A stretch of DNA of 64,000 bases, taken from Caulobacter vibrioides. GTDB taxonomy: Bacteria > Pseudomonadota > Alphaproteobacteria > Caulobacterales > Caulobacteraceae. The stretch is from assembly GCF_002858865.1 (NCBI RefSeq), contig NZ_PJRR01000018.1, forward strand, positions 1 to 64,000, in the 5' to 3' direction. A program made the position numbers and the translations under genes. Positions 42,684 to 47,395 of the stretch are shown piece after piece. A model generated the notes under the pieces. That model was not told where the DNA came from. It was given only the letters and a program-made list of their open reading frames with translations, and made no database searches. Each line of letters opens with the position of its first letter. The stretch's first letter is position 1.

Positions 42684-43516
42684 GCCACGACCTTTTCCAG
42701 CACCGGCCGCCAGTCCGGCTCCACCGGCAGGCCGATCACCTCCCGCAGGGTCGCCTCCAGCTCATCGACGCTCAGGTCGCGCTGCTCAACCACGGCGCCC
42801 GTGACGTCGCGATGGGTGAAGCGGTTGTTCTTCAGGGCATAGCGCGCGGTCGGCGTCGTGCGCCCCACCGTCATGCTCCAGGTGAAGTGCGAGCTGGGGT
42901 GGGTGTAGGTGTAGAAATTGGCCTGCTCGTAGTCGACCTCGGCCCAGGCGCCTTGCGACACCTGATAGAGCGGCGCCCAGCGGCCCGACAAATCGGCCTG
43001 GACCTGGCGTTCGGCGACGCCGTTCGTCTGCGTGTCGACGATGCGGAACTTGCCGTGCGGACTGTCCTGGACCTCGTCCGAGAACAGGCGCAGCGGCGCG
43101 GTCAGCACGCAGCCGCCAAAGCCGGCGTCGGCCAGCCAGGTCTCGCCGTCGATTGTGACACCCAGCACCTGGTGCGAGCGCGGACGCGGCGGCGCACCTT
43201 CCGGCGCCATCCACAGCACGCGGGCCATCAGCCCCTCGACTTGGAAGCCCAGCGCCTGCAGCACGCGTTTCAAAAGCCCGTTCTGCTCGTAGCAATAGCC
43301 GCCCCGCCCGGCGCCGATCAGCTTGGCGTCGACATCGTTGGGGACAATGCTGATCCCACGCCCCAAGAGGACGTCGAGGTTCTCGAACGGGATGGCGTCC
43401 GGGTGGCGGAAGGCGATGGCCCGCAGCGTATCCAGGGTCGGCTCGCGCGGGCCGTCATAGCCGATACGCCGGAAATAGGCGTCCAGCTCCACGGCCGGCG
43501 CCGGCGCGTCAAACAT
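42665..43516 (-). CDS. nat: arylamine N-acetyltransferase
   Basis: 283 residues. Acetyl-CoA-dependent acetylation of arylamines/hydrazines by a Cys-His-Asp triad: Cys75 in GRGGYCYEQN, His in RPRSHQVLGV, and Asp in WLADAGFGG. FENLDVLLGRGISI is a NAT hallmark. The start lies 8 nt inside the end of era and the end reaches into recO, so nat is woven into the era-recO unit. The physiological substrate is unknown. Confidence 0.9.
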   Translation of the reverse strand: MFDAPAPAVELDAYFRRIGYDGPREPTLDTLRAIAFRHPDAIPFENLDVLLGRGISIVPNDVDAKLIGAGRGGYCYEQNGLLKRVLQALGFQVEGLMARVLWMAPEGAPPRPRSHQVLGVTIDGETWLADAGFGGCVLTAPLRLFSDEVQDSPHGKFRIVDTQTNGVAERQVQADLSGRWAPLYQVSQGAWAEVDYEQANFYTYTHPSSHFTWSMTVGRTTPTARYALKNNRFTHRDVTGAVVEQRDLSVDELEATLREVIGLPVEPDWRPVLEKVVAWGTPA

Positions 43517-44459
43517 CGAAGTCCAGGCCGATGTCGCTGAACAGGCCACGTTCCTCGGCCCAGTTCTCCTTGACCTTCACGTGCAGGAACAGGTGCACCT
43601 TGCGATCCAGGATGTCGCACAGCTCCTCGCGCGAGGCCTGGCCGATCCATTTCAGGGTCTGGCCGCCCTTGCCGATGACGATGACCCGCTGGCCTTCGCG
43701 CTCGACCAGGATGGTCTGCTCGATGCGCACCGAGCCGTCCTTGCGCTCCTCGAAGGCGGTCGTTTCGACCGTCGCTGCGTAAGGAAGCTCCTCGTGGACG
43801 CGCAGATAGACCTTCTCGCGGGTGATCTCGGCGGCCAGCAGCCGCGCCGGCAGGTCGGCGGTCTGATCTTCCGGATAGAGCCAGGGCCCTTCCGGCATCA
43901 TCGACACCAGCTTGGCCGTCAGGTCCTCGACGCCCGCGCCGGTCGAGGCGCTGATCATGAAGACGTCGGAATAGACGCCGGTGTCGAAGAAGTCCTTGGC
44001 CACGGCCAGCAGGGTGTCGCGCTTGATCCCGTCGATCTTGTTAAGCGCCAGGATGACCTTGCGGTCGGCGGCCTTCAGGCCCTCGATGATGGTCTGCACG
44101 TCCTGGGCCGAGCGATACTCGCCGGGCGTGGCCTTGTCGGCACGGCTGGCCAGTTCGGCCTGCACGTCAACGAGGTGAACGGTGGCCTCGGCCTCTTCCG
44201 ATCCAGCCCAAGCGGCGCGGACCATGGCGCGGTCCAGGCGGCGGCGAGGGCTGAAGATCCCGGGGGTGTCGACGAGGACGATCTGGGTGTCGCCTTCGAT
44301 GGCGACGCCGCGCACGGGGAAGCGGGTGGTCTGGACCTTCTGGGTCACGATCGAGACCTTGGCCCCGACCATGCGGTTGACCAGGGTGGACTTGCCGGCG
44401 TTCGGCGCGCCGATGATGGCGGCGAAGCCTGCGCGGGTTTTGGAGGTGGTGTCAGTCAT
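43509..44459 (-). CDS. era: GTPase Era
   Basis: 316 residues. Ribosome-assembly GTPase acting on 16S rRNA 3' end. G1 GAPNAGKS at 17-24, the TTRFPVRG G2 region, G3 VDTPGIF, G4 NKID and G5 SASTGAG; then a KH domain with VIVIGKGGQTLKWIGQASREEL split as IGKGGQTLKWIG. Start at MTDTTSKTRAGF. The usual partner rnc is 1.2 kb away, separated by an opposite-strand stress gene. Confidence 0.96.
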   Translation of the reverse strand: MTDTTSKTRAGFAAIIGAPNAGKSTLVNRMVGAKVSIVTQKVQTTRFPVRGVAIEGDTQIVLVDTPGIFSPRRRLDRAMVRAAWAGSEEAEATVHLVDVQAELASRADKATPGEYRSAQDVQTIIEGLKAADRKVILALNKIDGIKRDTLLAVAKDFFDTGVYSDVFMISASTGAGVEDLTAKLVSMMPEGPWLYPEDQTADLPARLLAAEITREKVYLRVHEELPYAATVETTAFEERKDGSVRIEQTILVEREGQRVIVIGKGGQTLKWIGQASREELCDILDRKVHLFLHVKVKENWAEERGLFSDIGLDFDV

Positions 44460-44613
44460 TGCGCGTGCGTGTAGCACCAATGGGGGTTCGGCGGTAGCGA
44501 GGGGCTTCAACCGACGTGAGAGCGGATGTTCGCAGGGGCTGTTGAGGGTGGAAGCCGACCTTGGCCGGAGCCCATCTAAGGGGTGGTCTGCTGTTCGTAT
44601 CCAGCCGGCTATT

Positions 44614-44680: not shown

Positions 44681-45529
44681 ATGCCGCCGCTGGACATTTT
44701 ACTTCATCTTGACGCTTACCCCGAAGCGACTTCAACTGAAGCGATTGATCAAGCAGTACGATTTGCCGCCTCGGTTGGCGGGGTATTGTCAGCTATCGCG
44801 GTTGAGGTGGACATCAAACCTCCAAATAATCGTCTGGCCAACTATGTGATCGGCCTCAGCCACATGGCGGCGGAAGAGGAGCGAAAGAGCCGCGAGTTCT
44901 GCACTGCGGCGCTTGGGACGTTCACATCAAAGGCTCGCGAATTGGGCGTTTTGGGCGAGGCTATCCACGCAAAAGCTGACCTCTACGTTGTCGCGGCCTA
45001 TGTTGCTGAGCGGTCTAGGACGCGCGACTTGTGTATCGTACCTGTTGCTTCCCAGTCAGACGGTCAGCGCGCTGTCGTTGAGGCCGTCGCCTTCGGGTCT
45101 GGCCGCCCTGTTCTAACCTTCTGCCCGGGGGGCGCGGATCTGCCACCCAGCGGTCTGGATACCGTTGTGCTTGCCTGGGATGGGAGCCGCACGGCGGCGC
45201 GCGCCATGGCCGACGCCATGCCGATCCTTCGGAAAGCTCGTGAGATCACGGTGCTCACCGTGACAAACGATAAAGCGTCCACCGGCTCGGGCGCGGGCCG
45301 GGACGTCGTGCGGTATCTCGGAGCCCACGGCATAAGCGCCGTGGCCGAAGAGATAGACGGCGATGGACGTCGAACAGGGGTCGTGTTTTCGGACTATGTC
45401 GCAGCGAAGCGTCCCGGGCTTTTCGTCATGGGAGCCTATGGCCATTCGCGGGCAAGGGAGTTTTTATTGGGCGGAGCGACCGAACACATGCTTCATCATG
45501 TTCCGGTCCCCATGCTGCTCTCGCATTAG
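44681..45529 (+). CDS. universal stress protein (tandem UspA domains)
   Basis: 282 residues, two UspA units. The second is well formed, with TVVLAWDGSRTAARAMADAMP and the nucleotide motif GAYGHSRAREFLLGGATEHML; the first (1-140) is degenerate. The ATG follows GTGGAGACAAATC, which provides a GGAG ribosome site. The opening codons are visibly less GC-rich than the neighbours. The FixK box upstream points to induction under low oxygen. It sits on the plus strand between rnc and era. Confidence 0.88.
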   Translation: MPPLDILLHLDAYPEATSTEAIDQAVRFAASVGGVLSAIAVEVDIKPPNNRLANYVIGLSHMAAEEERKSREFCTAALGTFTSKARELGVLGEAIHAKADLYVVAAYVAERSRTRDLCIVPVASQSDGQRAVVEAVAFGSGRPVLTFCPGGADLPPSGLDTVVLAWDGSRTAARAMADAMPILRKAREITVLTVTNDKASTGSGAGRDVVRYLGAHGISAVAEEIDGDGRRTGVVFSDYVAAKRPGLFVMGAYGHSRAREFLLGGATEHMLHHVPVPMLLSH

Positions 45530-45721: not shown

Positions 45722-46417
45722 CTAATCAGCCCCCTCGCGCTCCAGCAGCGCCTTAGCCGCCGCTTTTTCGGCCTCCTGCCGGGACTTGCCCTTAGCGATG
45801 GCCGGATCGACGCCCTTGACCGCGACTTCGACCGTGAAGACCGGCGCGTGGTCGGGACCCGTGCGGTCCAGCACGCGGTAGGTCGGCAGCGGGCGGCCCT
45901 GGCCCTGCGCCCACTCCTGCAGCGCGGTCTTGGGATCGCGCGGACGCCCCTCGCCCGCCCGGTCGAACTCGTCGTTCCACAGATCGAGGAACACCTTGCG
46001 CGCCGCCTCCAGCCCGCCGTCCTGGTAAAGCGCGGCCATCAGGGCCTCGGTGGCGCCGGCCAGGATCGAGTCGGTTTCGCGGCCGCCGATCTTGCTGGAC
46101 GAGGCCGACAGCCGCAGGGCGGGGCCGAGTTCGGCCTTGCGCGCGACGCGGGCGCAGGTCTCACGGCTGACCAGGGCGTTGAGGCGCGGCGCAAGCTCGC
46201 CCTCCTTGGCCTTGGGGAAGCGCTGCGCCAGCGCCTCGGCGGCCAGCAGGCCCAGCACGCGGTCGCCGATGAACTCCAGCACCTCGTTGTCGCGGACCTT
46301 CTTGGCCCCGTCCCCGACGCTGGCGTGCGTCAGGGCGCGTTCGAGCAGTTCGCGGTCTTCGAACCTGTGGCCGATCCGGCGCTCCAGGTCGCCGACGGCG
46401 GCGACCCGTCTATCCAT
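45722..46417 (-). CDS. rnc: ribonuclease III with altered metal-ligand position
   Basis: 231 residues. Double-strand RNA endonuclease for rRNA and mRNA processing. The signature [14 protein letters not shown] keeps Glu45, Glu48 and Asp52. The second motif, usually ILADxxEAL, reads ILAGATEAL: the Asp that binds Mg2+ (Asp114 of E. coli) is Gly121, while Glu124 remains. The C-terminal dsRNA-binding domain ([20 protein letters not shown]..., [17 protein letters not shown]) is intact. It follows lepB by 9 bp. Confidence 0.94.
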
Positions 46418-46426
46418 GAGGCAAGA

Positions 46427-47272
46427 TCACTTCAGCACGTGGAAGAAGCGGCTGGGACGCGCGTCCAGGAACCAGGTCCACGGCTTGAAGAGGCTCGCCT
46501 CAGCGTTCCACGACAGCAGGATGATCTGGGCGCGGCCGACCAGGTTCTCGGCCGGCACGAAGCCGACGCCGATCTCGTCGCCGATGTACTGGTCCAGTTC
46601 ATAGTCCCACTTGCAGGCGCTTTCCTTGTAGGGCGAGACGCCCGGATCAAAGCGGCTGTCGGCCGAGTTGTCGCGGTTGTCGCCCATGAAGAAGTAGCAG
46701 CCGGCCGGAACCGTATAGATGCCGGTGTTGTCGCCACGGCTGTCGGGGCCGAAGTCCTGGATGTTGTACGGACGGCCCTCGGGGCTCGTTTCCTGGAAGC
46801 GCTGGACCTGCTGGGTGAAGCCATAGCCGGTGTCAACGAGGGCCGGGGCCTGGGCCTTGCGCGGCAGGGCCTTGCCGTTGATGTAGACTTCGCCGCCGCG
46901 GATCTGGACCTTATCGCCGGGCATGCCGATCAGGCGCTTGATGTAGTCGGTGCGATTGTCGCGCGGCAGCTTGAACACGACGATGTCGCCGCGCTTGGGC
47001 GCGCGATCGAAGATTCGGCCCTTGATGATCGGCGGGCTGAACGGGATCGAGTGCTTGCTCCAGCCGTAGCTGAACTTAGACACGATGATGTAGTCGCCCT
47101 GGTAGAGGTTCGGCTCCATCGAGGCCGACGGGATCGTAAAGGGCTGGAACAGCAGCACGCGCAGCACCAGGGCGATACCCAGCGCATAGGCGACGGTTTT
47201 GACGATCTCGATAAGCTCGGCGACGACGCCCTTCTCTTCGGGCGGCGTGAAGTCGTCGGCGGCGTCAGTCAT
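46427..47272 (-). CDS. lepB: signal peptidase I
   Basis: 281 residues. Cleaves Sec signal peptides at the periplasmic face. N-terminal helix (VAYALGIALVLRVLLFQPF), catalytic Ser51 in IPSASMEPN, Lys112 in YIKRLIGMPGD, and box E GDNRDNSADSRF. Start at MTDAADDFTPPEEKG; the frame stays open 34 codons upstream without family character. Paired with rnc, a common arrangement. Confidence 0.95.
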   Translation of the reverse strand: MTDAADDFTPPEEKGVVAELIEIVKTVAYALGIALVLRVLLFQPFTIPSASMEPNLYQGDYIIVSKFSYGWSKHSIPFSPPIIKGRIFDRAPKRGDIVVFKLPRDNRTDYIKRLIGMPGDKVQIRGGEVYINGKALPRKAQAPALVDTGYGFTQQVQRFQETSPEGRPYNIQDFGPDSRGDNTGIYTVPAGCYFFMGDNRDNSADSRFDPGVSPYKESACKWDYELDQYIGDEIGVGFVPAENLVGRAQIILLSWNAEASLFKPWTWFLDARPSRFFHVLK

Positions 47273-47395
47273 GCGGGCGCGGAGCTCTACGAAATGGGAT
47301 GGCCGGCGAACCGGTTCGGCTTTGCTAGACGGGCTTGGCCGGACGGGCAAGAGCGGCGCGTAGCCAAGCTTCATGGCGAGGTTTGGGCCGCCGCG

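Follow-up and report, generated by a model that had tools for sequence, protein, structure and literature searches.

A Caulobacter ribonuclease III with glycine at the place of a conserved active-site aspartate

The window analysed here, a 64,000-nucleotide stretch of a Caulobacter vibrioides contig, encodes a ribonuclease III (rnc, 231 aa; positions 45722-46417, minus strand) in which glycine stands where the Escherichia coli enzyme has Asp114. The active site of RNase III is conventionally listed with four acids, Asp114 among them. We propose, with a probability of about 0.8, that the window protein is an ordinary, working enzyme, the sole RNase III detected in its genome, and that its aspartate was replaced by glycine in the ancestor of a Caulobacter clade. 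The Asp114 acid is probably useful and not indispensable.

An intact gene with one altered catalytic residue

The complete rnc reading frame yields a protein that scores 234.8 bits against the NCBIfam RNase III equivalog TIGR02191 (cut-off 166.25; E 8.1e-70). Pfam places PF14622, PF00636 and PF00035 on it, that is, a nuclease domain (PF14622, residues 21-144; 45986-46357, minus strand) followed by one double-stranded RNA binding domain (dsRBD; PF00035, residues 162-226; 45740-45934, minus strand). An AlphaFold2 model built with 48 aligned rows reached a mean pLDDT of 91.9 and set Gly121 within a helix spanning residues 116-134; its best Foldseek match was E. coli RNase III (7r97, E 3.2e-18), a result that supports the fold only.

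The replacement itself, which an earlier note had proposed from the letters, is upheld. The plus strand reads GCC at 46055-46057, giving a GGC codon on the minus strand in the residue context SILAGATEA, and in the alignment to 7r97 ILAGATEA lies over ILADTVEA, with Gly121 on Asp114 (Asp107 in Aquifex). The alignment also identifies the three catalytic acids that are kept: Glu48, equivalent to E. coli E41 (46274-46276), Asp52, equivalent to D45 (46262-46264), and Glu124, equivalent to E117 (46046-46048), all on the minus strand. The earlier note had likewise counted the remaining acids as intact and was correct on Asp52 and Glu124, but its third, Glu45 (46283-46285, minus strand), was misassigned: that residue aligns with E38, an RNA-contact acid outside the catalytic four that in E. 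coli sits away from the cleavage site, as described in the available part of PMC9291653, and the place it had been given belongs to Glu48. Next to it, Val46 (46280-46282, minus strand) is a marker of the Gly-bearing clade, changing NERLEF to NEVLEF at a position where almost every Asp-bearing relative compared has Arg.

Set against what unites TIGR02191 members, the profile score, the domain order and the equivalents of E41, D45 and E117 are all in place, and the D114 acid is absent, with Gly121 in its stead. The window protein belongs to bacterial RNase III on the strength of these other features. That D114 has been lost naturally again and again in otherwise normal rnc genes argues for its being typical rather than defining. 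Mini-III enzymes are recognised by having no dsRBD, and the window protein carries one at residues 162-226.

The surroundings of the gene are familiar on one side and variable on the other. Directly upstream lies lepB, for signal peptidase I (46427-47374, minus strand; ORF, NCBIfam and Pfam), and downstream lies the GTPase gene era (43509-44510, minus strand; ORF and NCBIfam), past an inserted universal-stress-protein gene on the strand opposite to rnc (44681-45529, plus strand). An N-acetyltransferase-family gene (PF00797; 42665-43549, minus strand) sits between era and recO and overlaps both as called. Where era was in reach, most Asp-type relatives keep it within about 50 bases of rnc; close Caulobacter relatives often show a gap of 0.7-1.4 kb with varying cargo, including an Nramp transporter (L005), a DsbA-like thioredoxin (L004), a methyltransferase (L008) and a GNAT acetyltransferase (L083). 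The rnc-era gap is a small insertion spot.

Inheritance within Caulobacter and recurrence beyond it

Alignment with alphaproteobacterial Rnc proteins, the check that the earlier note had named, placed Gly in 21 and Asp in 59 of 80 relatives from the named collection. Within the genus, 73 of 75 genomes gave an rnc match, with Gly in 54 of the 73 and Asp in 19. These counts refute the idea that Gly121 stems from an error in sequencing or assembly or from a contaminant record, to which we assign next to no probability: the residue lies beyond chance or error because it is common to many relatives, with several Gly codons in use.

We placed these proteins on a quick tree of 129 rows (170 loci, reduced to 147 distinct sequences and thinned at 97% identity), comprising 47 Gly, 81 Asp and one Asn. 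All Gly rows, together with a single Asp row (L021), formed one group with SH-aLRT support of 95, in a tree that, like the others used here, was quick, carried no bootstrap, and had long branches and many weak forks. Among the 47 thinned Gly rows the codons were GGC (39), GGG (5), GGA (2) and GGT (1), with at least seven codon changes on the tree; the codon turned over silently while the residue stayed Gly, L021 excepted. The distribution points to an Asp-to-Gly change that is old and inherited, made in the ancestor of a Caulobacter clade. The exceptional L021, an Rnc from a metagenome bin (1501-2187 of its locus), combines Asp with Val46 and is nested among Gly rows; it may be a reversal, a recombinant, an intermediate or a late branch.

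A wider comparison drew on 185 distinct proteins, a sample enriched for non-Asp rows, so that its proportions are not a census. The equivalents of E41, D45 and E117 were each kept in 185 of 185, whereas the Asp114 column held Asp in 100, Gly in 75, Asn in six, Ser in two and Cys in two. Parsimony on a quick tree built without that column called for at least 14 changes there, and well-supported branches alone forced four changes between Asp and non-Asp. The codons observed (GAY, GGN, AGC, TGC and AAT) are linked by single-base steps. The contrast stands: across these sequences the Asp114 column is labile and the other three catalytic columns are invariant.

Much of this variation can be followed in one alphaproteobacterial family (f92), in which 58 of 60 sampled genomes had an rnc match and one (G1098, 4% contamination) had two. 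The 53 sequences read, a count that leaves out five genomes and the second match of G1098, comprised Gly in 27, Asp in 19, Asn in four, Cys in two and Ser in one. With all five residues at the Asp114 place, the f92 loci (L205 and L207-L258) make up a natural mutational series.

Pattern searches extended the survey, with tallies that are lower bounds, the patterns missing many genomes. A class-wide pattern with C, G or T as the second base of the codon matched 11 of 385 genomes in 12 rows; tblastn confirmed four of these as RNase III, one from the window's own genome and three from genomes of a single f92 genus, and the eight rows that were not RNase III were excluded before counting. The same pattern run across the phylum matched 7 of 393 genomes. 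Three of its seven rows were likewise set aside by tblastn as not RNase III before counting, and the others came from the window's own genome, a congener and, outside the class, one locus with Gly (L262) and one with Ser (L263). When Asp or Asn was allowed, the class pattern matched 198 of 367 genomes, and the matches listed (150 class rows, assigned by pattern and not individually confirmed as RNase III) held Asp in 140 and Asn in 10, a predominance of Asp that weighs against our proposal. A phylum-wide pattern (202 of 398 genomes matched), read by eye, gave one Asn (G594) and otherwise Asp among the matches listed, and an order-wide pattern (237 of 299 matched) served solely to pick rows.

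Together, these placements show that Gly also arose in other bacteria, outside the Caulobacter clade. The earlier note had set against its own suspicion of altered function the prospect of Gly being widespread among active enzymes; the distribution half of that prospect is borne out, by the Caulobacter clade, f92 and one genome outside the class, in enzymes known from sequence alone. Our search of the open-access literature found no report of natural Asp114 loss in a dsRBD-bearing bacterial RNase III, and no paper on the activity of Caulobacter RNase III.

How RNase III may work without Asp114

In the E. coli post-cleavage complex EcEEQ:RNA6, the portion of PMC9291653 available describes MgA as held by E41 and E117 and MgB by D45 and E117, leaving D114 as the only one of the four acids without direct Mg2+ contact; 7r97 appears to be the entry for this complex. 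Asp114 had been described in the earlier note as lying around the catalytic Mg2+, which is apt as to nearness and does not extend to coordination in that structure. The E. coli D114A variant is listed with weak activity at excess Mg2+ in vitro, low dsRNA binding and an in vivo entry of n.d. (PMC8708148, Table 1). Since Asp114 makes no direct Mg2+ contact and D114A is weakly active, normal cleavage by three acids is the likeliest mechanism.

Under such a mechanism, Glu48, Asp52 and Glu124 would hold the usual metal ions, with which the Rnc dimer would cut dsRNA. Asp114 would normally act from the second shell, through metal-bound waters and charge; its loss would be expected to lower metal affinity or rate, catalysis not being abolished, and Gly in this helical position may make space for water. 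In the cell, rRNA processing would be predicted to run normally; in vitro, the Mg2+ optimum would be raised or Mn2+ preferred. A change in activity or metal use, as the earlier note had suggested, could thus be real, by analogy with the weak E. coli variant. The Sinorhizobium enzyme, which carries the well-known conserved residues, is described in the accessible text of PMC6121014 as needing more metal than the E. coli enzyme and preferring Mn2+, so an altered optimum is plausible here, yet would not by itself single out Gly121 as the cause. A broader proposal, that the irreducible RNase III site consists of three carboxylates, with Asp114 a tunable second-shell residue, and that Caulobacter and f92 have evolved distinct metal preferences or cleavage behaviour, is tentative, and we would put it at somewhat below even odds.

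Data from other family members bear on what the loss might cost. Aquifex E40Q, D44N, D107N and E110Q are reported to bind RNA and to have lost cleavage, the excerpt of PMC8138440 available not stating whether singly or in combination. DICER D1810V, at a residue inferred from shared spacing to occupy the Asp114 place, is placed among mutations detrimental to metal coordination and to cutting of the 5p strand (PMC13049099, in part). The 3p cut of Drosha, made by RIIIDa, is called 'more vulnerable', a property that the authors, in the text of PMC8616936 available, do not tie to its Asn residue. By analogy, the Aquifex, DICER and Drosha data indicate a cost that a lineage might tolerate or make good.

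Carried to its extreme, that cost would leave a crippled or binding-only RNase III, a dsRNA-binding regulator in cells whose rRNA is processed by other RNases. The presence of D107N among the Aquifex mutants without cleavage, the impaired cutting of DICER D1810V and the weak activity of E. coli D114A (PMC8138440, PMC13049099 and PMC8708148, each in part) would all fit such a protein, the low dsRNA binding of D114A included. We nevertheless consider it very improbable. The equivalents of E41, D45 and E117, which a non-cutter would not need, are invariant in the 185-protein sample, also in the rows with Gly, Asn, Ser or Cys. A protein search (E<=0.1) and a PF00636 profile search (E<=1) of the window's own genome found no second RNase III, and each of six other variant or neighbouring genomes checked (four from f92, two with Asn) gave one match. 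Stems of the RNase III type, moreover, are still found around 23S rRNA in five Gly-type operons.

These stems were examined in five Gly-type operons of eight fetched, a set that leaves out the window's own genome, G156 and the Asp-type G304. Folded with duplexfold, the 23S leader and trailer formed duplexes of 54-67 pairs, the longest run being 15. At one aligned stem position, compared by eye, four species had G-C and G345 had A-T; arms taken from different species paired about equally strongly, so that the energies show a conserved stem and not species-specific covariation. Gly-type species have the stem on which RNase III would be expected to act, as observed with no shuffled or Asp-type control, and rRNA stems could persist for reasons besides RNase III. 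An RF00177 search for 16S rRNA gave no match in the window's own genome, but its controls matched in only 9 of 14 genomes, Caulobacter vibrioides not among them, so that this blank carries no weight.

A different possibility is that Gly121 is compensated within the same protein, by R46V or L50I/V, which adjoin the catalytic acids, or by a gained acid, so that the site has been rebuilt and not merely relaxed. Within the family the association is close: among thinned Gly rows, Val46 occurs in 46 of 47 and Ile or Val at residue 50 in 46 of 47, compared with Val46 in 1 of 74 and Leu50 in 72 of 74 family Asp rows. The compensating acidic residue that the earlier note had entertained has candidates as well, with columns 43, 74, 86, 96, 114, 152, 161 and others more often acidic in Gly rows. 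The coupling is broken, however, by L022, which pairs Gly with Arg46, and by L021, which pairs Asp with Val46, and the f92 Gly rows have Arg46 in 27 of 27 and Leu50 in 24 of 27, with column 114 acidic, by eye, in 3 of 27. Common descent could by itself produce the association, and we hold such a rebuilt site to be unlikely.

Other residues followed Gly121 to varying degrees. S117, S84 and R85 also looked fixed with Gly in the family comparison. A76 and N80 were perfectly coupled to Gly in the family but are present in Asp-bearing outgroup families, and were rejected as compensations. Residue 107 stands where E. coli has another conserved acid, E100. Among Gly rows 44 of 47 have Ser or Ala there, and among family Asp rows 31 of 74 have Ala, Ser or Thr; since the losses occur in both groups, this acid disappeared independently of Asp114.

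Relation to known RNase III enzymes

As a probably working RNase III whose lineage dispensed with Asp114 long ago, the window protein and its natural counterparts offer ready material on the role of this residue and its dependence on the surrounding protein. In human DICER, the residue that spacing assigns to this place is a hotspot in tumours (PMC13049099, in part). The same enzymes counsel caution with annotation rules that demand all four acids.

With the canonical Rnc proteins of E. coli, Aquifex and Sinorhizobium, the window protein shares the nuclease domain and dsRBD, the NExLEFxGD motif, the E41, D45 and E117 equivalents, the fold and a gene setting with lepB beside rnc and era downstream; it differs in having Gly for Asp114, NEVLEF for NERLEF and Ser at the E100 place. 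Mini-III (MrnC) resembles it in lacking an equivalent of Aquifex D107 (PMC4632822, in part) and yet processing 23S rRNA (PMC8708148, in part). Mini-III, however, also lacks the E40 equivalent, both absences being described for the Bacillus subtilis enzyme in the section of PMC4632822 available, and has no dsRBD, whereas the window protein has both. Drosha RIIIDa, which cuts the 3p strand (PMC8616936, in part), likewise carries a non-Asp residue at the same alignment position and keeps the Glu that follows, but it belongs to a eukaryotic tandem-domain enzyme and has Asn, not Gly. Loss of the aspartate is therefore already known in Mini-III and Drosha RIIIDa; what is new, as far as the open-access literature shows, is its occurrence in a dsRBD-bearing bacterial RNase III.
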